From Roseomonas populi (GTDB lineage: Bacteria > Pseudomonadota > Alphaproteobacteria > Acetobacterales > Acetobacteraceae): a stretch of 64,000 bases of DNA. The stretch lies in contig NZ_JANJOU010000007.1 of assembly GCF_024594815.1 (NCBI RefSeq), forward strand, positions 124,001 to 188,000, read 5' to 3'. This document shows positions 3,673-19,543 of this stretch, one piece after another. The translations under genes were made by a program, and so were the position numbers. The notes under the pieces are model-generated. The model was not told the origin of the DNA and made no database searches. It worked only from the letters and a program-made list of their open reading frames with translations. Position 1 is the first letter of the stretch. The number at the start of each line of letters is the position of its first letter.

Positions 3673-5145
3673 TCATTGCTGCTCCACGGTCGGCAGGACG
3701 AAGCGGAACACTGCCCCCCTGGGCGAGGCGTTCTCCGCCCAGAGGCGCCCGCCATGTGCCTCCACGCAATTCCGGCAGATCGCGAGGCCCATCCCCATTC
3801 CGTCGGGCTTGGTCGAGTAGAACGGCTCGAAAACGCGGGGAAGGTGGCTCGCGTCGATGCCCGGGCCGCCATCCCGCACCTCCACCTGCACGCCCTCGTC
3901 ACTCCGGGAAAGCCGCACCGTCAGGTCGTGCGGTCCGGGCTGCCCGATCATGGCCTGGGCGCCGTTCAGCATCAGGTTCACGACGACCTGCTGGATTTGC
4001 ACGGGATCGGCGGTCACGAGCGGCAGGCCACCTCCGGCATCGAAGTGGACGGAGGCGCCGCTGGCCCGGAGCTCCCGCTCGATCAGAAGGATGGCCTCGC
4101 GCGTGACCTGGACGAGATCGACGGCCTCGCTTCGCCGGGCGGCGTTCCCGATGAAGGAGCGAAGGCGCGTCACCACATCCCGCGCCCGGATGGAATCGCG
4201 TACGACATGCTCCAGGGCGTGCCGCGCCTCGGCAAGGTCCGGCTCGGCTCGCGCCAGCCAACGCCGGCATGCCTCGGCGTGGCCGACGATGGCCGCGAGA
4301 GGCGAGTTCACCTCATGCGCAATCGTCGCGGTGAGCGTGCCGGCGGTCGTGACGCGGGCGGCGCGCGCGATCTCGGCTTCGGCCTGGAGCAGGCGGGACT
4401 GCACCGCCTTGTAGGCCGTGATATCCACGGCGGTGACGACGATGTCCCGGAAGCCCTCCAGCGTGTCCGGCAGGTCCGCTGCGAAGAGACATTCAAGCTC
4501 GCTACCGTCAGGGCGGGTGATGTGTGCCTCCGAGCGGTAGAGCCTCTCCCCGGCGGAGATGGCGACCAGCCACTGCAGGAAGGTCTGGTCCGTGTTCGGG
4601 AGGATGCGGTCGAGCGGGCCGATGAAGGCTTCCTTCCCCGGCGCGCCCATCATCGTCACGGTGAAGCGGTTCACGTCCTTGATCCGTACCTGCCGGCGAA
4701 GCTGTCGCGCGCGGTCCGGATGGGTTGTGAAGTAGGCCTGCATGTCGTGAATGCCGGCCCGCCGCAGGGCCAGGATCGCCTCCGCCACGGGGAACCAGTC
4801 CTCGCGCCAGAGGGACACGCCGCTGCGCTCGAACAGCGCCTCGTAGCCCGTCCTGGCCTCCTGCAACCGCGCGCAGAGCTTGACACCTGCCAGGAGGGTG
4901 CCACCGCCGAGAAGCGCCGCGACCAGGCCCGCCCAGACACCGCCGTGCACGACTGCGATCGCGGCCGCCGCGCCCGCGAGCAGGGCGAGCAGGATCGGGA
5001 TCACCGCCAGCGCGACATGAGAGGGCAGGGAACTCGGCCATCCCGCGCGACGCGCCCGGTGCGCCCAGCGCGGCAGGGGGCCGGCATGTCCTGGCGGCGG
5101 CTCTTGCACCGATGGGGCTGGCCAGAGCGAGAAGACTTTCGTCAT
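3673..5145 (-). CDS. PAS-domain sensor histidine kinase, FixL/NtrB-like
   Basis: 490 residues from ATG 5145. Two closely spaced membrane helices (about 43-66 and 70-90) carry almost no periplasmic loop, so sensing is probably cytoplasmic or within the membrane. A PAS domain (about 100-245, ending VVTAVDITAYK) precedes HisKA with His277 in ATIAHEVNSPLAAIVGH and a HATPase domain with N box NLMLNGAQAM, G1 RDGGPGID and G2 GMGMGLAICRNCVEAHGG. The C-terminal half matches oxygen/redox-type kinases of the FixL group, but heme binding cannot be judged here. No response regulator is adjacent; the FixJ-like orphan at 18890 is one possible partner. The gene lies downstream of the MFS gene on the same strand after a 175-bp gap. 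Confidence 0.9.
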   Translation of the reverse strand: MTKVFSLWPAPSVQEPPPGHAGPLPRWAHRARRAGWPSSLPSHVALAVIPILLALLAGAAAAIAVVHGGVWAGLVAALLGGGTLLAGVKLCARLQEARTGYEALFERSGVSLWREDWFPVAEAILALRRAGIHDMQAYFTTHPDRARQLRRQVRIKDVNRFTVTMMGAPGKEAFIGPLDRILPNTDQTFLQWLVAISAGERLYRSEAHITRPDGSELECLFAADLPDTLEGFRDIVVTAVDITAYKAVQSRLLQAEAEIARAARVTTAGTLTATIAHEVNSPLAAIVGHAEACRRWLARAEPDLAEARHALEHVVRDSIRARDVVTRLRSFIGNAARRSEAVDLVQVTREAILLIERELRASGASVHFDAGGGLPLVTADPVQIQQVVVNLMLNGAQAMIGQPGPHDLTVRLSRSDEGVQVEVRDGGPGIDASHLPRVFEPFYSTKPDGMGMGLAICRNCVEAHGGRLWAENASPRGAVFRFVLPTVEQQ

Positions 5146-5320
5146 CGCCGTTCGCCCCAGCCAATGTCCTGCCCTTGCATCGCCATCCCCTGTGCGCGGG
5201 GAAAGTGCCAGCCGGGGAGGGGGGCCACAAGGCGCCGTCCGGGCGATCACCTTCGGCGCGGGCGCTAGCCGGGATCGGCCCCGAGGCGGCAGCTTCTGGC
5301 CATGGGCACCGCCGAGGGCG

Positions 5321-6526
5321 TCAAGGAACTCTCGTCCGTGCGCGGTCGGCCGTGAGCTCGAGCACAATGGCAAGCGCCGCCAGGAGCGCACCGAAGGCGC
5401 AGACCGCGCCCCATCCGCCGACCCGCCACGCCGCCATCGCGCCCGCGGATCCCGCTGCGCCGCCCAGGAACATGCCGGTCATGAAGACCGTGTTGATGCG
5501 GCTCCGCGCGTCGGGCTGCAGCGCGTAGATGACGTGCTGGTTGGAGACGAGGGAGCCCTGGACGCCGAAGTCGAGGATCACCACCCCCAGCACCAGCCCG
5601 GCGATCCCCGGCCAGGCGGCAAATATGGCCCAGGCCGCCAAGGTGAGGACGGCCCCGAGGCCGATGACAAGCCGCGGGCCGCGATGGTCGGCCAGCTTCC
5701 CCGCCAGCGGGGCGGCCGCGACACCGACCGCGCCGACGATGCCGAAAAGGCCCGCCACCTCCGCCCCCAGCTGGAACGAGGGCTGCTCCAGCCGGAGTGC
5801 CAGGATCGTCCAGAAGGTCGAGAAGGACGCGAAAAGTGCCGCCTGCATCAGGGTCGCCCTCCGCAGCGCGCGATGTGTGCGCCAGAGGCCGAGCAGCGAG
5901 CGCAGCGCCGCGCCATACCCGATCGTTGCAGCGGCAGGGCGGCGCGGAAGGGTAGCCGCCATCAGCGCCGCCGCCGCCAGAGCCATGGGTACGGCGAGCC
6001 AGAACATGGCGCGCCAACCAGCATGGGCCGAGACGAAGCCGCCCAGGGTCCGGCTGAGCAGGATCCCCGTCAGCACGCCGCCGGTGATCACCCCCACGGT
6101 CGCGCCGCGGCGTTCCGGCGCGGCGAGATGGGCGGCGAAGGGGACGATCTGCTGCGCCACTGTTGCGCAGAGGCCCACGGCAAGGGAGGCGAGCACCAAG
6201 ACCGGCGCGCTCGGCGCCAGCGCCGCCAGCGCCAGCGCGGCCGCGAGCACGCCGAACTGCGCGATGATCAGGCGCTTCTGGTCCAGCAGGTCGCCGAGGG
6301 GGAGCAGCAGGAAGAGGCTTGCTGCGTAGCCGAGCTGCGTGGCCGTGGGGATGAGGGCGGTGCTGGCAGAGCCGGCGAAATCAGCCTCGATGATCCCGAG
6401 CATCGGCTGGTTGTAGTAGATGTTCGCGACCGCGATGCCCGCCGCGGCGGCCATGGCGAAGGTCACTCCCCGTGTCAGCATCCCGGCGGAGGCTTGGGGC
6501 AGAGCATCCTGGATGCCGGTCGCCAT
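5321..6526 (-). CDS. MFS transporter, drug-efflux type
   Basis: 401 residues with about twelve hydrophobic segments. The early signature [18 protein letters not shown] and the loop [17 protein letters not shown] (a variant of the MFS A motif) belong to the DHA1-like group that includes uncharacterised AraJ/YnfM-type exporters. Later blocks [16 protein letters not shown] and [16 protein letters not shown] match motif C and helix 11. It should expel a small molecule across the inner membrane using the proton gradient. The AraC-type gene lies only 27 bp upstream on the same strand, so the two likely form an operon in which the regulator senses the exported compound. Substrate unknown. Confidence 0.92.
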
Positions 6527-6553: not shown

Positions 6554-7096
6554 CTACTGGCGGGAGGGCGCGCCCTGGTGCTGCCGGCGCCAAGCAAGAG
6601 GCGTGCTGCCCGTGAGGCGGCGGAACACGCGGGAGAAATGGGCCTGGTCGGCCAGGCCACAGGACAGGGCGATGTCGCAGAGGGACGCCCGGGTTTCTAG
6701 CATCAGGACCTTCGCCCGCTCGATGCGGCGCTCCATCACGAAGCTATGCGGAGACTGGCCGAAGCTCTGCTTGAAGGAACGCGCGAAGTGGCCGCAGCTC
6801 AACCGCACCTCGGCGGCAAGGTGCTTCTGCAGGAGCTGGGAGCCGAGATTGGCTTCGACGTAGCGCGACACGCGGATAACCTGCCAGTGCGCCAGCCCGC
6901 CCGGGATCACGGGCCGGTCTGTCCCTCTCGTATCCAGCAGGCGGGAGGCACGGGCCAGGGTGACGACGGCGGCCCCGCGGTCGCGGTCGAGCAGGTCGAG
7001 CGCGTCCTGCAGCAGCCGATGGACCGGGCCCACGTTTCCGCTGCGGCAGACCTCCTCATGACCACTGGCCCGAGTGGCAATATGGCTGGAGATCAT
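6554..7096 (-). CDS. AraC-family transcriptional regulator
   Basis: 180 residues if it starts at ATG 7096, which has a good ribosome-binding site (GGAG, 7 bp spacing); a GTG at 7177 would add 27 residues. The C-terminal ~105 residues are a typical AraC/XylS double helix-turn-helix: LAAEVRLSCGHFARSFKQSF for the first and CDIALSCGLADQAHFSRVFR for the second. The N-terminal part (about 70 residues) is too short for a cupin sensor domain and resembles no ligand-binding fold I know, so it may act without a classical effector. It is the first gene ahead of the MFS exporter and probably regulates it. Confidence 0.9.
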   Translation of the reverse strand: MISSHIATRASGHEEVCRSGNVGPVHRLLQDALDLLDRDRGAAVVTLARASRLLDTRGTDRPVIPGGLAHWQVIRVSRYVEANLGSQLLQKHLAAEVRLSCGHFARSFKQSFGQSPHSFVMERRIERAKVLMLETRASLCDIALSCGLADQAHFSRVFRRLTGSTPLAWRRQHQGAPSRQ

Positions 7097-7295
7097 CGCC
7101 CTGCTCCGCTGTCCGTCATGTTCGCTGACGGGACAGTGGATGAGCGCCGTGACGATCTCCACCTGGCACTTGTCCACCCCGGTAAGCTCTTGGGGCCGCG
7201 GAAGCCATACTTCAGTATAGGGCCAACAGACCTAGATAGGGCGGCGACTCCGGTGCGGGCCCCGGCCGGGCAGCTTCCCGCGGGACCTGTCCTGC

Positions 7296-7817
7296 TCAGC
7301 CGTTCCCACGCCGACCGGTTTCGAACAGGAACCAGACGCGACCCTCGGCCTCGTCGATCCAGTTCTCGAGAAGGCTGGCCGTGGCGACGTCGCCGTGCTC
7401 GTCGCACATCGACCGCAGCGCGCGCATACGGGCCACCAGGGCGCCGTTGTCCTCGCGCAGTTCGGCCAGCATGTCCTGCGGGGCTACGAAATCCGCATCA
7501 TTGTCCAGCACGCGCTGCACCCGCGCGACATGGCCGATAGAGCGGATGGTGGCGCCGCCCAGCTTCCGCGCGCGCTCGGCGATCGGGTCCACCATCGCCA
7601 GCAGCTCGCCCGCCTGCTCGTCGAACATGAGGTGATAGTCGCGGAAATGCGGGCCGGATGCGTGCCAGTGGAAGTTCTTCGTCTTCAGGTACAGCGCGAG
7701 CACATCCGCCAGCAGCGCCGTCAAACCGGCCGGGATGTCGCGGACCGCCTCTGCCGAGAGACCTGTGGGCGTGAGCAGCGCGGCCAGGCGCCGGGTCTGC
7801 AGTGGGCTTTCGGTCAT
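7296..7817 (-). CDS. dps: Dps/ferritin-like DNA-protection protein
   Basis: 173 residues from ATG 7817. The ferroxidase ligands of E. coli Dps are all present with exact spacing: His50, His62 and Asp66 in NFHWHASGPHFRDYHLMFDE, then Asp77 and Glu81 in MVDPIAERARKLGG. The protein should form a dodecamer that oxidises and stores iron using peroxide and may coat DNA in stationary phase. It stands as a single gene between the AraC gene and the large kinase. A 7-bp hairpin (7833-7850) lies just ahead of the start, within the transcript leader if transcription begins upstream; its meaning is unknown. No OxyR or Fur site was recognisable. Confidence 0.95.
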   Translation of the reverse strand: MTESPLQTRRLAALLTPTGLSAEAVRDIPAGLTALLADVLALYLKTKNFHWHASGPHFRDYHLMFDEQAGELLAMVDPIAERARKLGGATIRSIGHVARVQRVLDNDADFVAPQDMLAELREDNGALVARMRALRSMCDEHGDVATASLLENWIDEAEGRVWFLFETGRRGNG

Positions 7818-8007: not shown

Positions 8008-11000
8008 CTAGGCGCCGGCAACGCCCGGCCGGGCGGGCAGCCTGACGACAAAGCGGCTTCCCTGCGGCCCGGTGGCGATGCATTCCAGCCACCCACCATG
8101 CGCTTCCATGATGGAGCGGCATATGGAGAGCCCCATGCCGAGGCCGGTGGGCTTCGTCGTGAAGAAGGGGTCGAAGATCCTGGCGAGGTTCGCCGCTTTG
8201 ATTCCGGGCCCGCTATCCTCCACCGTGACCTCGACCATCCCCGCCGCCACATCGTGGCTGGACGCGATGACGACCTGGCGCCGACGGCCCGGGACCGCCT
8301 CCATCGACTCGGAAGCATTGAAGATGAGGTTGAGGAAGACCTGTTCCAGCTGGACAGGGTCGGCGAGAACGGCGGCGTTTGGCGCGGCCAGGACCTGCTC
8401 GACCACCGCGCCCTTGAGCTCGACTTCGGCCGAGACGAGGCCAGCCACCTTCCGCACCATCGCATCGAGAGGGACCTCGCGTCGCTCGGGCGGCGTCTGG
8501 CGCGCCAGGGCACGGAGGGACCGGACGATGTCGCTGGCCCGCTGCCCGTCCCGTACGATGTCGGCCAGACCGGCCAGGGCCTCCCCAATTTCGGGAACGG
8601 GCCGATTGAGCCACCGCCCGGCGGCACCCGCCTGCGCGACGATGGTCGAGAGAGGCTGGTTGATCTCGTGCGCGATCGACGCGGCGAGCTCCCCCATGGT
8701 GGCCGCCTGCGCCGCCTGGGCCAGCTCCGTCCGCGCCCGGCGGAGCGCCGCTTCCGTCACGCGGCGCTCCGTCACGTCCGTGAGGACGCCGACGAACACC
8801 TCCGGCTCGGCCGGCCCGAGCAGCAGCTCGACGTGCCGAACCGCGCCTTCCGGTCCAGCCGGATCGAGGATGCGGAAGGCGTGCGGACCGGACACCTCCC
8901 CGCCCCAGCGATGCGCGAGCAGGGCATCGATGCGTGGCCGGTCCTCGGGATGGGTCCGCGCCCGCATGGCCGCGACCGGCAGCGGGCCGCCCGCCGGGTC
9001 GGCGCCCCAGATCGGGTACAGCCCCTCCGACCAGGCCTGCTCGTCCGTCACCCGGTTCCAGCGATAGCTGCCGGAACGGCTGATGCGCTGGCCGAGGGCG
9101 AGGGAGGCCTCGCTCGCCCGCAGCGCGGAGTAGAGGCGTGCATTCTCCAGCGAGATTGCCGCCTGGCTGGCGATGATCTCGAGCAGCACCTGCCGGGAGC
9201 TGTCGAACGCATGGGCGGCGACCTCGTTCTCCAGGTGCAGCACGCCGATGAGCGTGCCCTGCTTGATCAGCGGCAAGGTGAGGAGGGAGCGGGCGGGCCG
9301 GATGGCGAAGTAGCCGTCGAACCCATGCTCGTGCGGCTCCCGCAGATCGGGGATCGAGGCAGGCAGGCGGCGCTGGATGACCTCGTAGAGAACCGAGAGC
9401 GGCAGGTCCCGCGGGGAAGGCGCGGCGCGGGCGAAATGCACGGCGATCCGGCCCGCACCCGGCGGGCCGCCCGCCTGCGGGCCATCCTCAAGGGTGCCGA
9501 GCGCCTCCAGGACGGTGCGCCCCCCGCCTGTCAGGATCAGCGCGGCGCGGCTCGCGCCAGCCACGGTCATGGCCTGGCCGAGCAGCCGCTGGACGAGGAG
9601 GTCGGTGTCGATCTCGCCCGACAGGCTCTGCACGGCCGCCAGGGCCGCGCCGAGGTCGAGCCCGTCATGGCTTTGGGGGAGGAACGGGCCCTCGCGCCGG
9701 GCGGCGGCCGCCCGCTTGGCCGTGGGCAGGAAGGAGTGGCGTGCCGAGAGCTTCGCGGCCCGCCGCGTGGCGCCCCAGGCCTCGTACTGGGCGTGCGCGC
9801 CGCGCAGGTGGTGCCGTGCCGCGCCCTCCAGACTGTGGGCGGCGTAGCAGGCGGCGGCCCGCTCATGCGCGATCGCGCGCACCTGCGGGCGGTCCCCGGC
9901 CGTGGCAGCCGCGATGGCCTCCTCGTAGAGGGAGAGGGCCCGCAGCGTATGCCCGTCCAGGCGTGCCGCCTCCGCCTCCAGCAGGAGCGCCTTGTCCCGG
10001 AAGTTCCCGGCATTCAGCCCTGCCCATCCACGCAGCAGGGCAAGATGCGGTGCGAGGCCCGCCCGATCCCCCCGTGCCGCGCGCAGCAGGCCGGAGAAAA
10101 GGTGGATGCACATGACGTGGACATGCGCCGGCGTGGACCAGGCGAGCGCGCTGGCTTGGCCGAGGCACCTCTCCGCCTCATCCGCGTCGTCCTCCGTGTA
10201 GGCGACGATGCCGCGGAACATCCAGTACCAGCAGAGCAGCGGCGTCATCGCCGTGCGGGGCGGCTGCGCGGGGAGGGCGCCTGTATCCCGGAGCGCGTGC
10301 AAGAAAGCCTGCTGAACACCGAGAATGCCCTCGACGTCCTCGAAATGCGCGCCGCGCGCGAAGGCGAGCCCGCGATTGATCTCCTCCTCCACCCGAGGGA
10401 GAGGGACGCCCATGACGATCAGGTCGGAGACGATGTGGTTGCAGGCGTAGCAGGCCATGGCCACGTCGCCGGCGCCCTGGCTCTCGGCCAGCGCGGCGCG
10501 GGCGCATCCCAGGGCGAAGTCGAAGGGGCGGCTCCACGCGCTCACCTGATCCAGCGCGACGAGGGAGGCGCTTCGCGTCTCCGCGCTGCCATGGGCCTCG
10601 GCGATGCGAACGCCCGCCTCGGAGAACTCCAGCCCGCGTCCGTACTCGCCGAAGCGATGGGCGAGGGCAACGCCGAACCAGGCCACGCCCAGCGCCGAAG
10701 CCGGTGCGATCCCGTGCAGGACGGTGAGCCGCACCTGTTCGCAGAGCAGCACGAACATCAGCGCGTCATCGACGAAGTTGGCGGGGGCCACGAGGCTGGC
10801 GAGCAGCTCCATCCCCTCCCGCAGGAGCGGGTCGGCCATGGGTTCCAGCCCGGGCAGCGCGGCGGGGCCGTGCGTGCCCATCGCGGCCCGCAGGCGGCGA
10901 TAGGCGTCCTCCGTCTCGGCCGTGCCGGGAGAGGCCGGCAACTTGATGCCCAGGAGCGGCAGCGCCTCCGCCCCCACCTGGATCGCGCCGGCGAAGTCCG

Positions 11001-12099
11001 AGCGCAGGCTTCGCAGCCGGATGTCGAGCCGGAGCGCCGCCAGGCTCCCGGCCAGGTCCGCAGCCTCCCGCCGGAGGCGCGCGATCTCCGCGGCGGCCTC
11101 GGGGAAACGGCCCTCCAGGATCAGGCGCTCCGCTCGAGGCCGAACGGTGGCCTCCTCGGGCAACAGGGCCATCGGCTCGGCCATTGCGCCGGGCGCGCCC
11201 GGGACGGGGCCTTCGCCCGCTGCCCCATCCAGATCGAAGGGCGGGATGCATCGCCCGCGCTCCCATGCTGACAGGCAGCGCAGCAGATCGCGCTCAAGCG
11301 CTGCGGCCGAGCGGTAGCGCTGCGCGGGCTCCTTCTCGATGAGCTTCAGCAGGATGGCGTCCAGCATCGCCGGCACCTCCGCACGGAAGCGGCTCGGCGG
11401 CGGCGGCCGGCGGGCGGCGTGGGCGTGAATCCAGCCGAGCGCGTCCGCCGCCTCGAAGGGCAGGCGACCGGCTAGAACCCGGTAGAGCGCCATGCCGAGG
11501 GCGTAGAGGTCACCCCGGGTGTCGCTCACGGGATGGGTCCGCCGCGCGCGCTCGGGTGGAGTGAAGGCAGGATCGCCGAGGCCGCCATCCTCCGCAGCGA
11601 TCGCCTCGCTCCCGCGCATCGCGAGCCCGAAGCCCGCCAGCCGGACCGTGCCGTCCGCGCCTTCGAACAGGCTGGCCGGCGTGATGTCGCGATGAAGCAT
11701 CCCCAGGGCGTGCGCCCGGCCCAGGGCCCAGGCGGCGCCGGCCGCGAAGCGGAGAAAGCCGGCGATGTCGCGCCTCCCGGCGTCCGGCAACGGCCCGCCA
11801 CCGTCGTCGCGCGAGATCAGCACCGGTCCATCGAGGGTCGGGACGAGGTGCAGCGGCAGCACGGCCCAGTCCGCGGAGAGCGCATCGCGCATCGCGAAGC
11901 CCCGGCGCAGCCGGGCCGAGGCGCCCGGCTCCTCCGGCATCGCGGCCCGCGAGACCAGCCATGTCCCGTCGCTGGCGGGGGAGAGCGCGCGGAACGTCTC
12001 CACCCATCCATCCGCCACGACCGGCTCCATCACCAGTGCGGCCAGCCACTGCTCGTCCGGCGATGCTTCCGTTGCGGTGGGCAGCAGGTCCATGCTCAA
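8008..12099 (-). CDS. Pseudokinase-GAF-PAS hybrid sensor histidine kinase without AAA module
   Basis: 1,363 residues. Residues 1-290 are a Ser/Thr-kinase-like domain: HRD is present (136-138), but the catalytic Lys position is Thr140 and DFG is GFG (156-158), and no Gly-rich loop or VAIK lysine is evident. It is therefore probably a pseudokinase. Residues 300-770 are alpha-helical TPR-like repeats, about 790-955 a GAF domain, about 985-1090 a PAS domain, then HisKA with His1144 in SIAHEINQPL and a HATPase (EDSGPGI, GLGMGLSICRSIMEAHGG). Family members usually have an AAA/NTPase module with a Walker A motif after the kinase domain; here the sequence goes from AWERGRCIPPF straight to the repeats. 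Start: TTG 12099 has the better RBS spacing; ATG 12093 is the alternative. Confidence 0.9.
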   Translation of the reverse strand: MSMDLLPTATEASPDEQWLAALVMEPVVADGWVETFRALSPASDGTWLVSRAAMPEEPGASARLRRGFAMRDALSADWAVLPLHLVPTLDGPVLISRDDGGGPLPDAGRRDIAGFLRFAAGAAWALGRAHALGMLHRDITPASLFEGADGTVRLAGFGLAMRGSEAIAAEDGGLGDPAFTPPERARRTHPVSDTRGDLYALGMALYRVLAGRLPFEAADALGWIHAHAARRPPPPSRFRAEVPAMLDAILLKLIEKEPAQRYRSAAALERDLLRCLSAWERGRCIPPFDLDGAAGEGPVPGAPGAMAEPMALLPEEATVRPRAERLILEGRFPEAAAEIARLRREAADLAGSLAALRLDIRLRSLRSDFAGAIQVGAEALPLLGIKLPASPGTAETEDAYRRLRAAMGTHGPAALPGLEPMADPLLREGMELLASLVAPANFVDDALMFVLLCEQVRLTVLHGIAPASALGVAWFGVALAHRFGEYGRGLEFSEAGVRIAEAHGSAETRSASLVALDQVSAWSRPFDFALGCARAALAESQGAGDVAMACYACNHIVSDLIVMGVPLPRVEEEINRGLAFARGAHFEDVEGILGVQQAFLHALRDTGALPAQPPRTAMTPLLCWYWMFRGIVAYTEDDADEAERCLGQASALAWSTPAHVHVMCIHLFSGLLRAARGDRAGLAPHLALLRGWAGLNAGNFRDKALLLEAEAARLDGHTLRALSLYEEAIAAATAGDRPQVRAIAHERAAACYAAHSLEGAARHHLRGAHAQYEAWGATRRAAKLSARHSFLPTAKRAAAARREGPFLPQSHDGLDLGAALAAVQSLSGEIDTDLLVQRLLGQAMTVAGASRAALILTGGGRTVLEALGTLEDGPQAGGPPGAGRIAVHFARAAPSPRDLPLSVLYEVIQRRLPASIPDLREPHEHGFDGYFAIRPARSLLTLPLIKQGTLIGVLHLENEVAAHAFDSSRQVLLEIIASQAAISLENARLYSALRASEASLALGQRISRSGSYRWNRVTDEQAWSEGLYPIWGADPAGGPLPVAAMRARTHPEDRPRIDALLAHRWGGEVSGPHAFRILDPAGPEGAVRHVELLLGPAEPEVFVGVLTDVTERRVTEAALRRARTELAQAAQAATMGELAASIAHEINQPLSTIVAQAGAAGRWLNRPVPEIGEALAGLADIVRDGQRASDIVRSLRALARQTPPERREVPLDAMVRKVAGLVSAEVELKGAVVEQVLAAPNAAVLADPVQLEQVFLNLIFNASESMEAVPGRRRQVVIASSHDVAAGMVEVTVEDSGPGIKAANLARIFDPFFTTKPTGLGMGLSICRSIMEAHGGWLECIATGPQGSRFVVRLPARPGVAGA

Positions 12100-12497
12100 G
12101 GACCGCTCTCCTCCTCCATCGCATCCGTCAGGCGCGTGATGAGGACGTTGGGGTCGCAGGGCTTCTCGAGGAAGAAGCGCGCTCCTCCGCCCATCGCGCG
12201 TTGCCGGACGCGCTCGTCGGGAAAGGCGGTGATCAGGATCACCGGCAGCTCGGCGCGGCGCGACCGCACGGCGCGAAGCAGGTCGAAGCCGGACAACTCG
12301 GGCATCTGGATGTCGGAAACGACGCAGTCAAAGGGCGAGAGGTCCTCCGCCAGGAATGCGTTCGCGGAGGCGTAGGCCCTGGCCCTGAGCCCGGCGGAGC
12401 GCGCGAGGCTCGTCAGTGCCACCCTGACGCTGTCGTCATCGTCCACGATAGCGATCAGGTGATCTCGCAAGCGAACCGACCTCCCTTGGACCCTCAA
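12096..12497 (-). CDS. Single-domain response regulator (receiver only)
   Basis: 133 residues, one receiver domain: acidic pocket IVDDDDSVR, phospho-acceptor Asp in CVVSDIQMPELSGFDLL, Thr in VILITAF and Lys in RFFLEKPCDP. The sequence is closest to FixJ-type receivers but has no DNA-binding domain, so it likely acts by protein contact or as a phosphate sink. Its stop overlaps the start region of the large hybrid kinase, which strongly implies a cognate pair. The start is a TTG at 12497 without a clear ribosome-binding site, so the N-terminus is uncertain by about ten residues. Confidence 0.88.
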   Translation of the reverse strand: MRVQGRSVRLRDHLIAIVDDDDSVRVALTSLARSAGLRARAYASANAFLAEDLSPFDCVVSDIQMPELSGFDLLRAVRSRRAELPVILITAFPDERVRQRAMGGGARFFLEKPCDPNVLITRLTDAMEEESGP

Positions 12498-12749
12498 CGG
12501 GCTCGGCGGCCCACCACAGCTATACCGCGCCGCGCCTCACGGCGACACTATACGAAAGGTCAGAGCCCCAGGGCGGGGCACCCCGTTGGGGCCAACGGCC
12601 GTCGCCGCAGGAAGAGACGGCCGTGATGTCGGGATCGTCCAAATTCGTCGGCGCCCGACAAGAGGCCGGCCGGCCCGGCGCCTAACCTCGATCCTGTCCG
12701 AGCGAGAGCCCCGCGCGGCGCAGTGCCTGGACGCGGCAGGAGAACCGGC

Positions 12750-12892
12750 ATGACCGAGCGCCCACCCGCCGGAGCGGCATCCCGCCGCGACCTTGTCCTG
12801 GGGGCATCGGCACCGCGGCCCTTCCGGCCACCCCCGCCGGCGCGCAGCGCGCGCCGGATCATCAACCCCAACGGCATCCGGAACATCGCAGC
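12750..12892 (+). pseudogene. Tat signal peptide region out of frame with hydrolase
   Basis: ATG 12750 has a strong ribosome-binding site (AGGAGA) and opens [20 protein letters not shown], a typical Tat signal start with the twin Arg. The continuation in this frame turns into Pro/Arg-rich nonsense, while the next frame reads [10 protein letters not shown], a typical signal-peptide end, straight into the hydrolase at 12893. The two frames differ by one position (143 nt between the ATGs), so a single-base deletion around 12808-12815 appears to separate signal from enzyme. It may be a real mutation or an assembly error. The bases from 12498 to 12749 show no gene. Confidence 0.55.
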
Positions 12893-13714
12893 ATGGCCAC
12901 CTTCACCACGCGGGACGGCACCTCGATCTACTACAAGGACTGGGGCAGCGGCGCGCCCGTCGTGTTCAGCCACGGCTGGCCGCTGAGCAGCGACGCGTGG
13001 GAAGCGCAGATGATGCACCTCTCCTCCAACGGCTTCCGCTGCATCGCGCATGACCGCCGGGGCCATGGGCGCTCCTCGCAGCCCTTCGCGGGCAACGACA
13101 TGGACACCTACGCGGACGACCTCTACGCGCTGATGGAGCACCTGGACCTGCGCGGCGCGATGATGGTCGGCCATTCCACCGGCGGCGGCGAGGTGCTGCA
13201 CGTGGCCGGGCGGCACGGCACCACGCGCATCGCGAAGCTGGTGCTGGTCAGCGCGGTCGCGCCCTTGTTGGTGAAGAACGAGGCCAGCCCGGACGGCGTG
13301 CCGTTGGAGGTGCTGGACGGGCTGCGCGCGAGCATGCTGAAGGACCGCTCCCAGCTGTTCCAGGACTTCACCACCGTCTTCTTCGGCGCGAACCGCCCCG
13401 GCGCGCAGGTGACGCAAGGCATGCGCGACAGCTTCTGGCTGCAGGGCATGACCGGCGGGCTGAAGAATCAGTACGACTGCATCAAGGCCTTCTCCGAGAC
13501 GGACCTGACGGAGGACCTGGAGAAGCTGAACATCCCCGTGCTGGTGCTGCACGGCGATGACGACCAGGTGGTGCCGATCGCGGCCACCGGCATGCGTTCC
13601 GCGAAGCTCGCTCCGCGGGCGACGCTGAAGGTCTATCCGGGCGTCGCCCACGCGCTGCCCGACACGGCGCGCGACGAGCTGAACGCCGACCTGCTCGCCT
13701 TCGCCAGGTCCTGA
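12893..13714 (+). CDS. Alpha/beta hydrolase, non-heme chloroperoxidase/aryl-esterase type
   Basis: 273 residues with the complete catalytic triad of cofactor-free haloperoxidases/perhydrolases: nucleophile Ser95 in VGHSTGGGE, an acidic residue in [10 protein letters not shown] (about 222-224) and His253 in GVAHALPDT. The oxyanion-loop [10 protein letters not shown] follows strand 3. Such enzymes hydrolyse aryl esters and lactones and can form peracids. ATG 12893 has no ribosome-binding site; the better initiation signal lies at 12750, out of frame by one base (see the entry for that segment), so the intact protein was probably exported by Tat. It heads a co-directional set with a YcaC-like hydrolase, XapX and amidohydrolase. 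Confidence 0.88.
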
Positions 13715-13721
13715 TCGGGAC

Positions 13722-13743
13722 GGGTGCCCCTCAGCGGGTACCC
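13722..13743. terminator. Hairpin after chloroperoxidase-like gene
   Basis: GGGTGCCC (13722-13729) pairs with GGGTACCC (13736-13743) over 8 bp with one G:U pair and a CTCAGC loop, starting 8 bp after the hydrolase stop. It is followed by C- and T-containing DNA but no true T-run, so termination is likely but not certain. Confidence 0.45.
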
Positions 13744-13859
13744 CCCCTCTCAATGCTCGATTGCGTTGGTGCAATCTCGGCCTTGTAGTTCCCGCCATGG
13801 CCTTGCGTCGCGCTCGCCGTAATCATCCCGCCACACCAGCCACAACAGGAATGGCCATC

Positions 13860-14510
13860 ATGCCGACCGCGACCCCGACCCCTGGCAAGCTGCTGCTCAA
13901 CGCCTCCGACCACACGCTCATCATGATCGACTTCCAGTCGCAGATGGCCTTCGCGACGAAGTCAATCGACCCCGTGGCGCTGCGCAACAACGCCGCCCTC
14001 GTCTCTGCCGCCGCCGCCGGTTTCGGCGTCTCCACCATCCTCACCACGGTTGCGGAGAAGTCCTTCTCCGGCCCGATGTTCGAGGAGGTGACGGCGCCCT
14101 TCCCTGGCCAGAAGCTGCTGGACCGCACCTCCATGAACACCTGGGAGGACGCGGCGGTGATCGAGGAGGTGAACCGCATCGGGAAGCCGCGCATCGTCCT
14201 CGCCGGGCTCTGGACGGGCGTCTGCATCGTCGGCCCGGCGCTGTCCGCGCTGGACCAGGGCTTCGAGGTGTACTTCATCGCCGACGCCTGCGGCGACGTC
14301 TCGACCGAGGCGCATGAGCGCGCGGTGGAGCGCATGATCCAGGCCGGCGCGCGGCCGATGACCGCGCTGCAGTACCTGCTGGAGCTGCAGCGCGACTGGG
14401 CCCGCAGCGGGACCTACGAGATGACCACCGGCATCGCAAAGAAGTACGGCGGCGCCTACGGCATCGGCATCAACTACGCCAAGACGATGTTCAACGCCCA
14501 CGAGGGCTGA
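13860..14510 (+). CDS. Isochorismatase-family hydrolase, YcaC-like
   Basis: 216 residues from ATG 13860, chosen because AGGA sits 9 bp upstream; in-frame ATG 13851 and codons further upstream are alternatives. The fold shows Asp24 in LIMIDFQSQMAF and nucleophile Cys122 in AGLWTGVCIVGPAL with the preceding cis-peptide region, as in YcaC, a cysteine hydrolase of unknown substrate near isochorismatase and nicotinamidase. The expected active-site Lys is not obvious; Arg89 in DRTSMNTWED occupies roughly that place. The neighbours (chloroperoxidase-like hydrolase, XapX, amidohydrolase) form a cluster I recall from other proteobacteria without an assigned pathway. Cytoplasmic. Confidence 0.9.
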   Translation: MPTATPTPGKLLLNASDHTLIMIDFQSQMAFATKSIDPVALRNNAALVSAAAAGFGVSTILTTVAEKSFSGPMFEEVTAPFPGQKLLDRTSMNTWEDAAVIEEVNRIGKPRIVLAGLWTGVCIVGPALSALDQGFEVYFIADACGDVSTEAHERAVERMIQAGARPMTALQYLLELQRDWARSGTYEMTTGIAKKYGGAYGIGINYAKTMFNAHEG

Positions 14511-14520
14511 GCCCGCAAAC

Positions 14521-14548
14521 GCGCGCCGGGCCACGGCGCCCGGCGCGC
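14521..14548. terminator. Strong intercistronic hairpin
   Basis: GCGCGCCGGG (14521-14530) pairs perfectly over 10 bp with CCCGGCGCGC (14539-14548), 8-base loop. It lies between the YcaC-like gene and XapX, without a T-run, and could be an attenuating terminator or an mRNA-stabilising element separating the two cistrons. Confidence 0.5.
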
Positions 14549-14563
14549 CCATCGGAGGACGCG

Positions 14564-14824
14564 ATGAAGCCCTACCTGCTCTCCCTCTGCGCCGGCCTTC
14601 TCGTCGGCGTGGTGTACGGCCTGATCGGGGTCCGGTCGCCGGCGCCGCCGGTGATCGCGCTTATGGGACTGCTCGGCATCCTGCTGGGCGAGCAGGTCGT
14701 GCCCGTGATCAAGCGGATGCTGGACGGTCACTCGCCCATTTCGGCGATATGGCATCCCGGCTCCGCGCAGCACCTCTTCGGCCGGCTGCCCGGCCATGGC
14801 GCCACAGCAAGGGACCATGTGTGA
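14564..14824 (+). CDS. XapX-domain membrane protein
   Basis: 86 residues. Two short hydrophobic segments (about 4-22 and 29-50) with YLLSLCAGLLVGVVYGLIGV and APPVIALMGLLGILLGEQV are the diagnostic pattern of the XapX (DUF1427) family, whose function is not established. A good ribosome-binding site (GGAGGA) precedes the ATG. Its TGA overlaps the ATG of the amidohydrolase, so the two are translationally coupled and probably act together at the inner membrane. The C-terminal 30 residues are polar and unremarkable. Confidence 0.92.
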   Translation: MKPYLLSLCAGLLVGVVYGLIGVRSPAPPVIALMGLLGILLGEQVVPVIKRMLDGHSPISAIWHPGSAQHLFGRLPGHGATARDHV

Positions 14825-16779
14825 TGCCGAACCTCTCACGCCGCAGCATCGCCGGTGGGTTTACCGCCCTCGGCCTCTCCATCCTCGACCGGAGCCCCGC
14901 CATGGCCGCATCCGCGCCCGACATGATCCTGCACAATGGCGAGATCACCACGCTGGACCGGGGCAACCCGGCGCCGCAGGCGGTGGCGGTGACCGGCGGC
15001 CGCTTCTCCGCCGTCGGCGACGCCTCCGCCATCCTGCCCACGGCCGGGCCGGAGACGCGGGTGATCGACCTCAAGGGCCGCCGCCTCATCCCCGGGCTGA
15101 TCGACAACCACCTGCACGTGATCCGCGGCGGGCTGAACTTCAACATGGAGCTGCGCTGGGACGGCGTACGCAGCCTCGCCACCGCGATGGAGATGCTGCG
15201 GAACCAGGTGGCGATTACGCCCCCGCCGCAATGGGTCCGGATCGTCGGCGGCTTCACCGAGCACCAGTTCCAGGAGAAGCGCCTCCCGACGCTGGACGAG
15301 ATCAACGCCGTCGCGCCCGACACGCCGGTCTTCATCCTCCACCTCTACGACCGCGCGCTGCTGAACGGCGCCGCGCTGCGGGCGGCGGGCTATACGAAGG
15401 ACACGCCGAACCCGCCGGGCGGCGAGATCCAGCGCGCGCCGGACGGCACGCCGACCGGCCTGCTGCTGGCCAAGCCGAACGCCACGATCCTCTACGCCAC
15501 GCTGGCCAAGGGTCCTACGCTGCCCTTCGACTACCAGCTCAACTCCACCCGGCACTTCCTGCGCGACCTGAACCGCCTCGGCGTCACGGGCGCGATCGAC
15601 GCGGGCGGCGGGTACCAGAACTACCCGGACGACTACAAGGTGATCCAGAAGCTGGCCGATGATGGCGAGCTGACGGTGCGCATCGCCTACAACCTCTTCA
15701 CCCAGAAGCCGAAGCAGGAGAAGGAGGATTTCCTCCGCTGGACAGGCAGCGCGAAGTACCAGCAGGGCGACGACTACTTCCGCCTGAACGGTGCCGGCGA
15801 GATGCTGGTCTTCTCCGCCGCCGACTTCGAGGACTTCCGGGTGGAGCGCCCGGAGATGCCGCCGGAGATGGAGCCTGAGCTGGAGGCCGTGGTCCGCATC
15901 CTCGTCCAGAACCGCTGGCCCTGGCGGCTGCATGCCACCTACGACCAGACCATCGGCCGCGCCCTCGACGTGTTCGAGAAGGTGAACTCCGAGATGCCGA
16001 TCGGTGACCTGCACTGGATCTTCGATCATGCGGAGACGGTGACGGAGCGCAACCTGGAGCGTATCGCCCGCCTCGGCGGCGGCGTGGCCGTACAGCACCG
16101 CATGGCCTACCAGGGCGAGTACTTCGTGGAGCGCTACGGAAACCGCGCGGCGGAGGCGACGCCGCCGGTCGCGAAGATGCTGGAGATGGGCGTGAAGGTC
16201 TCGGCCGGCACGGATGCTACCCGCGTCGCCTCCTACAATCCCTGGGTCGCGCTCTACTGGCTCACCACCGGCAAGACCGTGGGCGGCCTCCGCATCACGC
16301 CGGAGCGCAACACGCTGGACCGCGAGACGGCGCTGCGGATGATGACCGAGAAGGTCACCTGGTTCTCCAACGAGGAGGGCAAGAAGGGGCTGATCGCGGA
16401 GGGCCAGCTCGCCGACCTCGCCGTACTCGACCGCGACTACTTCAAGGTGCCCGGCGACGAGGTGCAGGACATCACCTCGATCCTGACCGTCGTCGGTGGC
16501 AAGGTGGTGCACGGGGCAGGGGACTACGCCTCCCTCGCGCCGCCGCTGCCGCCCGCCATGCCGGACTGGTCCCCCGTGCGGCGCTTCGGCGGCTACCAGG
16601 ACCGCCGGGCGGAGAAGCCCGGCGCGGCGGGTGCCTTCGCCCGCGCCGTGGGCGGCTGCTGCGATGCCGCCTGCGGCGTGCACGGGCACGATCATGCCCG
16701 CGCCTGGGCGGCTCCCACCCCCGCCGGCGCCGACAAGGGCTTCTGGGGTGCCCTCGGGTGCTCATGCTGGGCCTTCTGA
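14824..16779 (+). CDS. Exported YtcJ/AepA-like amidohydrolase with Cys/His-rich tail
   Basis: 651 residues, ATG 14824 overlapping the XapX stop. A Tat-like signal (NLSRRSIAGGF, cleavage near AMAAS) precedes an Amidohydro_3 domain: metal-binding HxH in IDNHLHVIRGG (His96, His98), later HATYDQTI, HWIFDHAE and SAGTDATRV, consistent with a metal-dependent amidohydrolase acting in the periplasm. The C-terminus carries an extra ~42 residues (about 610-651) with two CC/C pairs, HGHDH and a final GCSCW, which is not part of the hydrolase fold and may bind metal or an anchor. The substrate is unknown. The gene is downstream of XapX and the YcaC-like hydrolase and is followed after 2 bp by a DoxX gene. 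Confidence 0.9.
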   Translation: MPNLSRRSIAGGFTALGLSILDRSPAMAASAPDMILHNGEITTLDRGNPAPQAVAVTGGRFSAVGDASAILPTAGPETRVIDLKGRRLIPGLIDNHLHVIRGGLNFNMELRWDGVRSLATAMEMLRNQVAITPPPQWVRIVGGFTEHQFQEKRLPTLDEINAVAPDTPVFILHLYDRALLNGAALRAAGYTKDTPNPPGGEIQRAPDGTPTGLLLAKPNATILYATLAKGPTLPFDYQLNSTRHFLRDLNRLGVTGAIDAGGGYQNYPDDYKVIQKLADDGELTVRIAYNLFTQKPKQEKEDFLRWTGSAKYQQGDDYFRLNGAGEMLVFSAADFEDFRVERPEMPPEMEPELEAVVRILVQNRWPWRLHATYDQTIGRALDVFEKVNSEMPIGDLHWIFDHAETVTERNLERIARLGGGVAVQHRMAYQGEYFVERYGNRAAEATPPVAKMLEMGVKVSAGTDATRVASYNPWVALYWLTTGKTVGGLRITPERNTLDRETALRMMTEKVTWFSNEEGKKGLIAEGQLADLAVLDRDYFKVPGDEVQDITSILTVVGGKVVHGAGDYASLAPPLPPAMPDWSPVRRFGGYQDRRAEKPGAAGAFARAVGGCCDAACGVHGHDHARAWAAPTPAGADKGFWGALGCSCWAF

Positions 16780-16781
16780 GC

Positions 16782-17171
16782 ATGAGCCCCACCGCGAGGC
16801 GTGCGCTGACCCTCATCGGCCTGCTCGGCCTCTGCGCGGCCTATCTTCAGGGCGGATTGAACAAGCTGGTCGACTATCCGGGGGCGGTGGCGGAGGCGGC
16901 CCATTTCGGGCTGCCGCTGCCGCCCGTGGTGGCCGCCCTCACCATCGCCCTGGAGCTTGGCGCCAGCGCGATGATCCTGTCGGGATGGTTCCGCAGGTTG
17001 GGCGCGCTGGGGCTTATGGCTTTCACCCTCGCCGCCACCCTCATCGCGAACCGCTACTGGGAACTGCCGGGCGGGATGGAACGCTTCATGATGGCGAACT
17101 CCTTCTACGAGCACCTTGGCCTCGCCGGCGCCTTCCTCCTGGTCGCGCTGCATGACCGGAGGGTGGCATGA
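16782..17171 (+). CDS. DoxX-family membrane protein
   Basis: 129 residues from ATG 16782, two bases after the amidohydrolase stop; an overlapping ATG at 16758 would add 8 residues. Four hydrophobic helices with LQGGLNKLVDYPGAVAEAAH, ALELGASAMILSGWFRRLGA and the final YEHLGLAGAFLLVALHDRR fit the DoxX/DoxD-like group of small inner-membrane proteins linked to redox or thiol stress in other bacteria. Its stop overlaps the next ATG (ATGA), so it is in an operon with the MFS exporter. Its specific role here is unknown. Confidence 0.88.
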   Translation: MSPTARRALTLIGLLGLCAAYLQGGLNKLVDYPGAVAEAAHFGLPLPPVVAALTIALELGASAMILSGWFRRLGALGLMAFTLAATLIANRYWELPGGMERFMMANSFYEHLGLAGAFLLVALHDRRVA

Positions 17172-18754
17172 GCGCCGCGCCCGGCCCCTTCGCGCCGCTG
17201 CGCCAGACCACCTTCGCGGTGATCTGGGCGGCCACCGTCCTAGGCAACACCGGCAGTTTCATGCGCGATGTCGCCAGCTCCTGGCTGGTGACGGATCTTG
17301 GCGCCGGTCCCGCCGCCGTCTCCCTCATCCAAGCGGCGGGAACCCTGCCGATCTTCCTGCTGGCGATCCCGGCCGGCGTGCTCTCCGACATCCTGGACCG
17401 CCGCCGCTTCCTCATCGCCGTGCAGCTGCTGCTGGCGGCGGTCAGCGCGGGGCTGATGGTGCTCTCCTGGCTCGGGCTGATGACGGTCACGGCGCTTGTC
17501 GCGCTCACCTTCGTCGGCGGCATCGGCGCGGCCCTGATGGCGCCCACCTGGCAGGCGATCGTACCGGAACTGGTGCCGGGGAAGGAGCTGAAGGGCGCGG
17601 TTGCGCTCAACTCCCTCGGCATCAACATCGCCCGCTCCATCGGGCCGGCCGCGGGGGGGCTGCTGCTCTCGGCGGCGGGCGCCGCCGTCACCTACGGTGC
17701 CGACGTGGCGAGCTACGCGCTGGTGATTCTCGCCCTGCTCTGGTGGAAGCGGCCCGCGCGGTCCGAGGATGCCCTCGCCGAGAATTTCGGCGGCGCCTTC
17801 CGTGCCGGGCTGCGCTACGCGCGCGCCAGTCGGGAGCTGCACGTGGTGCTGCTCCGGGCCGCGATCTTCTTCGCCTTCGCCAGCGCGGTATGGGCGCTGC
17901 TGCCGCTGGTCGCGCGCAACCTGCTGGGCGGCGATGCGGGCTTCTACGGGATCCTGCTCGGCGCCGTGGGGCTGGGTGCGATCGGCGGGGCGCTGCTGCT
18001 GCCGCGCCTGCGCGCGGTGCTGGATGCAGACGGGCTGATGCTGGCCGCCAGCATCACGGCGGCTGCCGTCATGGCTGTCCTCGCCCTGGCACCGCCGCGC
18101 TGGCTGGCGCTGCTAGTCCTACTGTTGCTCGGCACCGCCTGGATCATCGCGCTCACCACGCTGAACGGCGCGGCGCAGGCCATCCTGCCGAACTGGGTGC
18201 GCGGCCGGGCGCTGGCCGTCTATCTCACCGTGTTTAACGGGGCGATGGCGCTGGGCAGCCTCGGCTGGGGCCTGGTGGCGGAGGCGGTCGGGGTGCCGGC
18301 CGCGTTGCTGGCCGGGGCCGCCGGCCTTGTGCTCGTCGGCTTCATGCTGCACCGGGTGAAGCTGCCAGCGGGAGAGGCGGACCTTGTTCCCTCCAAGCAC
18401 TGGCCGGAGCCGCTGACGGCCGATCCGGTCCCGCATGACCGTGGCCCCGTGCTGATCCTCATCGAGTACCGGGTCAGGAAGGCCGATCGCGCGGCCTTCA
18501 TGCACGCCATCCAGGGCCTCTCCGTCGAGCGTCGGCGCGACGGCGCCTATGGCTGGGGCATCACCGAAGACGCGGCCGACCCGGAAGGGCTGGTGGAGTG
18601 GTTCATGGTCGAATCCTGGGCCGAGCACCTGCGCCAGCACCACCGCGTGTCCCGCGCCGACGCGGACGTGCAGGAGGCGGTGCGCCGCTTCCACACGGGG
18701 CCGGAGGCGCCGGTGGTGCGGCACTTCCTGACCGTCAGCCCCGGCCGGGGCTGA
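17168..18754 (+). CDS. MFS exporter (EntS-like) with C-terminal ABM-like domain
   Basis: 528 residues. Residues 1-400 form about twelve membrane helices of the MFS_3/EntS group, with FAVIWAATVLGNTGSFMRDV at the start, the A-motif-like loop GVLSDILDRRRFLIAVQ and GINIARSIGPAAGGLLL in helix 5. A soluble C-terminal region (about 425-528, VLILIEYRVRKADRAAFMHA to VVRHFLTVSP) resembles the antibiotic-biosynthesis-monooxygenase (ABM) ferredoxin-like fold, a fusion I recall as common in this subgroup. It is probably an inner-membrane exporter whose cytoplasmic tail binds substrate or a partner. It closes the amidohydrolase-DoxX operon and is followed by a hairpin. Confidence 0.9.
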   Translation: MSAAPGPFAPLRQTTFAVIWAATVLGNTGSFMRDVASSWLVTDLGAGPAAVSLIQAAGTLPIFLLAIPAGVLSDILDRRRFLIAVQLLLAAVSAGLMVLSWLGLMTVTALVALTFVGGIGAALMAPTWQAIVPELVPGKELKGAVALNSLGINIARSIGPAAGGLLLSAAGAAVTYGADVASYALVILALLWWKRPARSEDALAENFGGAFRAGLRYARASRELHVVLLRAAIFFAFASAVWALLPLVARNLLGGDAGFYGILLGAVGLGAIGGALLLPRLRAVLDADGLMLAASITAAAVMAVLALAPPRWLALLVLLLLGTAWIIALTTLNGAAQAILPNWVRGRALAVYLTVFNGAMALGSLGWGLVAEAVGVPAALLAGAAGLVLVGFMLHRVKLPAGEADLVPSKHWPEPLTADPVPHDRGPVLILIEYRVRKADRAAFMHAIQGLSVERRRDGAYGWGITEDAADPEGLVEWFMVESWAEHLRQHHRVSRADADVQEAVRRFHTGPEAPVVRHFLTVSPGRG

Positions 18755-18889: not shown

Positions 18890-19543
18890 ATGGGGCAGGA
18901 GAGGGACCTGGACGATCAACAGGAGCCCCGGCCCCTCGTGCTTGTGGTGGACGACGATGCCAGGGTCCGCCACGCCATCGACGGCCTGCTCCGCTCGGTC
19001 GGTCACAGCACGCGCCTCTATGAGGTCGCGCACGAGATCCTCGATGGTCCGCTGCCTGACGACGTGGGCTGCATCATCATGGACGTCCGCATTCCCCGCA
19101 TGAGCGGGCTGGAGTTCCAGGCGCGCCTGGCCGAGCGCGGGGAGCACCCACCGATCATCTTCGTCACCGGCTACGGCGACGTCCCGATGAGCGTCCGCGC
19201 GATGAAGGCCGGGGCTGCTGACTTCCTCGTCAAGCCCTTCCGAGACCAGGACATGCTGGACGCGGTTGACGCCGCCTTGGAGAAGGACCGCGCGCGGCGG
19301 CGCGCCCAGGAGACCTCCGTCGCGGTGCGGTCGCGCTACGCCACGCTCACCCCGCGCGAGGCGCAGGTGATGGCGCTCGTCGTCTCCGGCCTTATGAACA
19401 AGCAGATCGCGGGCGAGCTGGGGCTGAGCGAGATCACCGTGAAGCTCCACCGCGCGAATGTCATGCGGAAGATGGACGTGCGGACGCTCGCCGACCTCGT
19501 GCGAACGGCGGAACTCGTCGGGCGGGACTCGCAGCAGGGCTAG
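18890..19543 (+). CDS. FixJ-family response regulator (receiver + LuxR HTH), orphan
   Basis: 217 residues after a perfect GGAGG site. The receiver (about 15-130) has VVDDDARVR, phospho-acceptor Asp65 in CIIMDVRIPRMSGLEFQ and Lys in DFLVKPFRDQDMLDAVDAAL, with a FixJ-type switch region. The LuxR-type helix-turn-helix (about 150-212) reads LTPREAQVMALVVSGLMNKQIAGELG then SEITVKLHRANVMRKM. No kinase is adjacent. The FixL-like kinase at 3673-5145 and the large hybrid kinase at 8008-12099 both lack a DNA-binding partner next to them and are candidates. The gene stands alone with its own hairpin after the stop. Confidence 0.94.
   Translation: MGQERDLDDQQEPRPLVLVVDDDARVRHAIDGLLRSVGHSTRLYEVAHEILDGPLPDDVGCIIMDVRIPRMSGLEFQARLAERGEHPPIIFVTGYGDVPMSVRAMKAGAADFLVKPFRDQDMLDAVDAALEKDRARRRAQETSVAVRSRYATLTPREAQVMALVVSGLMNKQIAGELGLSEITVKLHRANVMRKMDVRTLADLVRTAELVGRDSQQG

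Follow-up and report, generated by a model that had tools for sequence, protein, structure and literature searches.

In this study, we report a large sensor histidine kinase encoded in a stretch of 64,000 nucleotides from Roseomonas populi (hereafter, the window), from which the AAA module carried by nearly all the relatives examined has been removed by one clean deletion, in a single lineage within the window's genus, while the rest of the protein has been conserved. The best overall explanation, to which we give a probability of about 0.6, is that the protein is a cytoplasmic sensor kinase of hybrid ancestry belonging to the HstK/CHK1 type, that its AAA module was deleted once and that the remainder signals to a lone receiver/FixJ-type output. 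The kinase gene and its domains are organized as follows:

8008..12099, minus strand: gene of the AAA-less sensor histidine kinase, 1,363 codons from TTG
11254..12057, minus strand: pseudokinase domain, residues 15-282 (Pfam, fold match, motif columns)
11146..11223, minus strand: disordered linker, residues 293-318 (pLDDT, low identity, BLASTP boundaries)
9730..11145, minus strand: helical repeat domain, TPR_CHK1-like in relatives, residues 319-790 (all-helical model, PF25503)
9148..9606, minus strand: GAF domain, residues 832-984 (Pfam)
8773..9075, minus strand: PAS-like domain, residues ~1009-1109 (weak profile match and predicted strand-helix order)
8497..8697, minus strand: HisKA domain, residues 1135-1201 (Pfam; phospho-acceptor H1144 in HEINQP)
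8029..8361, minus strand: HATPase_c domain, residues 1247-1357 (N, G1 and G2 boxes NASES, SGPGI and GMGLSI)

The coordinates, length and domain order that an initial annotation had given for this protein were right. An in-frame ATG lies two codons 3' of the TTG start. Pfam identified Pkinase at residues 125-270 (E = 1.1e-10) and GAF (E = 1.4e-10), together with HisKA and HATPase_c at the residues listed above, and the motifs of the last two domains are intact. The PAS_3 match was under the Pfam cut-off (E = 0.014, compared with 4.9e-11 in one relative, L056) and the predicted order of strands and helices at residues ~1009-1108 reads as PAS. The structural model of residues 1-830 (mean pLDDT 84.5, pTM 0.61) showed a kinase fold at ~15-282, disorder at 293-319 (pLDDT below 50) and then only helices from 319 to ~790, and the model of residues 800-1363 (mean pLDDT 75.5) showed GAF, the PAS-like unit, HisKA and HATPase. 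In the fold search, the kinase domain was PknB-like (Z 27.9 over model residues 15-277), with kinase matches filling the list of the N-terminal model, which therefore gives no information on the repeats; LOV/PAS-histidine kinases were high in the list of the C-terminal model, but with large rmsd. TPR_CHK1 (PF25503) reached only E = 0.13 in the window kinase and passed 0.01 in one of the four AAA-less orthologues described below (alignment A2), versus 16 of the 22 members of a mixed family alignment (A5).

The AAA_16-type module that lies between kinase and repeats in the AAA-bearing kinases (PGAP-style "trifunctional") is absent from the window kinase, as the initial annotation had noticed by inspection. 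Pfam detected no AAA or other P-loop family in it at E up to 10, a limit at which the HMMER filters already discard most matches above ~0.1, and no P-loop family in any of the four AAA-less orthologues. An AAA profile built from the paralogue HK17, G183 and G215, whose own matches are therefore trivial, scored -5.4 bits against the window kinase, compared with 243-515 bits in complete named relatives outside its building set. A P-loop NTPase between residues 290 and 770 was looked for by profile, by profile-profile comparison and by structure prediction, and none was found: the profile-profile search of this region against five AAA stretches gave a probability of 0.1% with a shallow query (Neff 1.3), and no strand as long as three residues occurs beyond residue 154 of the 1-830 model. 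Between residues 280 and 400, where the initial annotation had asked for a structure prediction, the model shows a disordered linker followed by helices and no NTPase fold. It must be noted that MAFFT put some linker residues in AAA columns of alignment A5; the model still shows the linker as disordered.

The position and extent of the deletion can be read from a paralogue in the same genome (HK17, on contig 17; L001, 3338-9094), in which AAA_16 was found with E = 1.8e-34. In BLASTP, residues 63-300 of the window kinase correspond to 47-282 of HK17 and residues 323-989 to 776-1442, and ~490 residues of the paralogue are thus represented by ~22. The linker at 293-318 takes the place of these ~490 residues, which in relatives include AAA and winged-helix-like parts, and the region 286-321 is only 28-33% identical among the AAA-less orthologues. 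Of the 15 genomes of the genus, four, among them that of the window, contain an orthologue, and all four orthologues are AAA-less, with 78-82% identity to the window kinase over repeats and GAF and 74-76% over the whole protein; the other 11 genomes gave no match to the repeat-GAF region. The orthologue of Belnapia rosea (L055, the same contig as G183) is 64-66% identical and has the AAA module, Walker A included. In a tree of 35 repeat-GAF sequences, obtained by a quick method from seven rows and 28 of the 78 named loci that remained, the four AAA-less proteins formed one clade (SH-aLRT 100) which Belnapia adjoins, and one change of state suffices for the loss of AAA. L054 and L055 were omitted from the tree and from the motif table, being on the same contigs as G006 and G183.

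Other accounts of the missing module have to be weighed against a deletion. An assembly error was rejected, since the same form recurs in four of 15 congeneric genomes. That an AAA domain is present but diverged beyond detection can be practically discarded: Pfam, the AAA profile, the profile-profile comparison and the model are all negative, and the ~490 residues missing relative to the paralogue leave no room for it. It is also very improbable that the module was split off and acts in trans as a separate protein. The genome is indeed rich in generic AAA_16 proteins, with 51 matches at E up to 0.001, but the Belnapia module, searched against five genomes, retrieved only Belnapia's own copy and the paralogue of the window genome; gene fission was rejected because the three remaining AAA-less genomes yielded no separate copy of the module (E up to 0.001).

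A further alternative is that the kinase is a decaying remnant on its way to being lost, the deletion of AAA having been the first step. The absence of any repeat-GAF match from 11 of the 15 genomes would agree with this, as would pseudokinase motifs more degraded than in most relatives. Selective constraint was estimated by an approximate home-made Nei-Gojobori count of pN/pS for all but one of the six AAA-less pairs and for one pair with Belnapia. Among the AAA-less orthologues (five of six pairs), the values were lowest in HisKA (0.08-0.15), intermediate in the repeats (0.16-0.25), GAF (0.17-0.22), HATPase (0.18-0.27) and the kinase C-lobe (0.24-0.35), and highest in the N-lobe (0.29-0.50) and the linker (0.35-1.03). 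With the ratios of all folded domains clearly under 1, the AAA-less protein is, by this sign, functional; the N-lobe is its least constrained folded part, as a decaying vestige would also show. Against decay there are, in addition, the frames open in all four genomes, the identity kept over the whole protein and the intact motifs of HisKA, HATPase and receiver. Decay is consequently improbable to our judgement, and a single deletion followed by conservation of the rest is the reading retained here.

The initial annotation had stated that the larger family carries AAA, and this agrees with our survey of named relatives, which covered the best 80 of 513 confirmed relatives. Leaving uncounted 14 frames that run off a contig end, 64 of the 66 complete ones have kinase and AAA, one has the kinase only and one has neither. 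The kinase-only relative belongs to the window's genus (L054, Pararoseomonas indoligenes, on the same contig as G006) and the other is from Bradyrhizobium erythrophlei (L124, 8521-12081, plus strand), where no other frame of the locus matched the kinase or the AAA profile at E up to 1. AAA_16 was likewise present in 20 of the 22 members of A5. The genome surveys scored three to four candidates per genome, so that further copies may be missed, and the AAA module itself was examined in part of the full-span matches; beyond the four AAA-less proteins, no full-span match inspected had an open frame shorter than 1,663 aa, with the exception of G1029. This frame of 1,396 aa (L220, 4968-9155, minus strand) was rejected as a second independent AAA-less case: it keeps AAA, repeats, GAF and HisKA and lacks the kinase, a mirror-image truncation. 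G648, a frame of 1,403 aa at a contig edge, was rejected as an AAA-less candidate, as it has both kinase and AAA. The family is modular, since the opposite losses are seen, with AAA but no kinase in G1029 and neither in L124. In L222 (G1147), a relative is split by at least one in-frame stop into frames of 250, 1,000 and 710 aa and is probably a broken gene.

With respect to the kinase domain, which had been described as a pseudokinase, the motif columns support this view: the window protein has HRDITP, GFG and no Lys in the beta-3 stretch. All four AAA-less rows lack the beta-3 Lys and have Thr at the K140 position and Gly at the DFG Asp. The initial annotation was correct in reporting GFG and Thr, but GFG is no peculiarity of this protein, given that Gly replaces the DFG Asp in 49 of the 71 other rows of the family, nearly all of them carrying the AAA module, and Asp is kept in eight. 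Lys in the beta-3 stretch was found in 10 of 67 readable rows, and only one row, L107 from Polyangium, has every kinase motif. Thr for the catalytic-loop Lys is, by contrast, lineage-specific, occurring in the four AAA-less rows and in one of the 71 others, that of Belnapia. This change preceded the loss of AAA, because it is common to the AAA-less rows and AAA-bearing Belnapia. As judged from these columns, the pseudokinase is mostly inherited.

The genes upstream of the kinase that are considered as its possible output are the following:

12096..12497, minus strand: lone receiver gene, 133 aa (Response_reg 15-123; acidic cluster, D62, T90, K112)
12498..12892, no strand: divergent promoter region between the receiver and the hydrolase operon (blocks conserved in 4/4 genomes by alignment)
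12893..18754, plus strand: divergent gene run, candidate regulon (Pfam; conserved neighbours)
18890..19543, plus strand: FixJ-type response regulator with receiver and LuxR/GerE helix-turn-helix (Pfam), candidate DNA-binding output

By its sequence motifs, the receiver corresponds to a single-domain response regulator, stand-alone and with an intact phosphorylation site. Its gene overlaps the kinase start, as had been noted, by 4 bp (TTGA), and an NTGA overlap was found in all five orthologous gene pairs read. The initial annotation had treated this lone receiver as part of the stripping-down, which is contradicted by Belnapia, where a full-length AAA-bearing kinase is accompanied by a lone receiver with an ATGA overlap. 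Among the named loci (from the best 80 of 513), a lone receiver lies directly upstream in 10 of the 65 with sufficient upstream DNA, including loci of Paraburkholderia, Pseudomonas and Noviherbaspirillum. The receiver is thus an old arrangement, older than the loss of AAA, albeit not the rule.

The proposal of a DNA-free output was half right: the receiver does stand alone, but a FixJ-type regulator with a LuxR helix-turn-helix is conserved nearby in all four AAA-less genomes. The copies in the other three are 86-91% identical to that at 18890-19543, which is 76% identical to Belnapia's, and are separated from the receiver by 6-10 kb. The Belnapia genes run FixJ-type regulator, receiver, kinase, according to the home-made codon-position score used for some gene calls at these loci. 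In NCBIfam, the HisKA/HATPase part matched FixL best (157.5 bits, cut-off 850) and the receiver FixJ (95.6, cut-off 255), both scores falling below those of an equivalog. A second histidine kinase at 3673-5391 (minus strand; HisKA 351-412, HATPase) is a possible partner of the FixJ-type regulator, and similar genes were seen near the G001, G006 and Belnapia loci.

These data allow another arrangement, in which the lone receiver is a phosphate sink or feedback element and the real target of the kinase is the FixJ-type regulator. The Belnapia gene order, the best matches to FixL and FixJ and the retention of the FixJ-type gene in the four AAA-less genomes speak for it, and Alphaproteobacteria are reported to have single-domain regulators in which kinase input is integrated. 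It is nevertheless the receiver, and not the FixJ-type gene, that translationally overlaps the kinase in the five pairs, and, of the 10 named loci where a lone receiver adjoins the kinase, only three show a FixJ-type gene within the available DNA, some of these loci being too short to tell. We consider this arrangement rather unlikely, although clearly less so than decay of the kinase.

The divergent run at 12893-18754 comprises genes for an alpha/beta hydrolase, an isochorismatase-fold hydrolase (YcaC-like), an XapX-like protein, an amidohydrolase, DoxX and an MFS protein. This hydrolase cluster is conserved with the kinase in the window's genus, and at least two of its four genes are present at 10 of the 65 named loci (from the best 80 of 513). 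As a guess from position, these genes may be the best candidates for the regulon, because they are conserved neighbours and because the promoter region has conserved blocks in the four genomes. Two blocks of 12498-12892 are well conserved in the four genomes, one with a TATAGT-like element and the other with, in the window, an imperfect inverted repeat (TTGTCGG...CCGACAT). On the other side of the kinase, a Dps/ferritin-like gene (7296-7817, minus strand) lies just downstream; a Dps gene is also found beside the AAA-bearing paralogue on contig 17, and there was one match in L043. Also downstream is an AraC-family regulator (6554-7177, minus strand), and matches to it with high scores lie next to the three other AAA-less kinases as well as next to the paralogue.

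Taking the protein as a once-deleted HstK/CHK1-type kinase, its sequence and predicted structure give a protein with no NTPase and with an intact histidine kinase core, next to a phosphorylatable, translationally overlapping receiver and a conserved FixJ-type gene; its partners and its signal are inferred. A binding platform for a ligand or partner may be formed by the helical repeats and the pseudokinase attached to them, and its occupancy, together with GAF and PAS, would set the HisKA-HATPase activity directly, with no nucleotide-driven switch. H1144 would then be phosphorylated and act as phosphate donor to D62 in the lone receiver, which would relay or buffer the signal, and the FixJ-type regulator, directly or via cross-phosphorylation, may alter transcription of the divergent hydrolase genes. 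Against this explanation, the FixJ-type gene is 6-10 kb off and not adjacent, the histidine kinase at 3673-5391 is a competing partner, the lone receiver is directly upstream in a minority of the named loci (10 of 65, from the best 80 of 513) and the Belnapia locus has none of these hydrolase genes within the DNA examined. The stripped-down signalling scaffold initially proposed, in which the pseudokinase would sense, is thus retained as an AAA-less derivative, but not in its receiver acquired with the stripping nor in its DNA-free output. It is conceivable, somewhat short of an even chance, that pseudokinase and repeats couple straight to the histidine kinase and that AAA is an add-on outside the core signalling path, such as a device that depends on ATP for assembly or for setting a threshold, which could be removed without killing the kinase. 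If so, this lineage would serve as a naturally simplified but working model for the CHK1/HstK class.

Comparison with known systems places the protein among kinases with an N-terminal Ser/Thr-kinase-like part. The HstK of cyanobacteria carry an AAA module. With them the window kinase shares the N-terminal Ser/Thr-kinase fold, the GAF domain between the kinase parts and the C-terminal HisKA and HATPase_c; it differs in having no AAA, in its lost kinase motifs, the catalytic Lys, HRD-x-K and DFG of HstK/cbSTKIII being absent from the motif columns, and in a receiver encoded by a separate gene, a comparison made at the level of architecture. For the HstK/cbSTKIII "dual protein kinases" this architecture is described as Ser/Thr-kinase-like domain, GAF, HisKA and HATPase (PMC2176072, PMC1262709). 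The fungal CHK1, Mak2 and Mak3 have an S_TKc-like domain, helical repeats, GAF, HisKA and HATPase (PMC9069115, PMC5383687), an order repeated in the window kinase. CHK1 has AAA_16 and a fused receiver, whereas the window kinase has neither: AAA is absent, Pfam found no receiver at its C-terminus, and a separate gene that overlaps it encodes the receiver. In the accessible part of the study of C. albicans CHK1, S_TKc and AAA_16 were deleted together, never AAA alone (PMC9069115).

Closer comparisons are offered by HK17 and Belnapia. The paralogue HK17 is 33-43% identical over pseudokinase, repeats and GAF and has GFG in common with the window kinase; it differs in keeping AAA and in its HisKA_2/HWE-like C-terminal kinase (MHHRVKNN, a motif assigned by eye), and no lone receiver gene was seen beside it. 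The Belnapia rosea orthologue resembles the window kinase in its lone receiver upstream and in the same Thr for Lys, and differs in having AAA, a FixJ-type gene directly upstream and HRA in place of HRD, with the loss of the Asp. The window kinase is therefore best regarded as a derivative of the HstK/CHK1 class that lacks AAA, and not as a new kind. Its interest lies in the natural removal of AAA alone, with the rest under constraint and a close full-length comparator in Belnapia: the loss in one small lineage is a natural test of whether signalling needs the module, and the pair makes the role of AAA directly testable by comparison and by chimeras.
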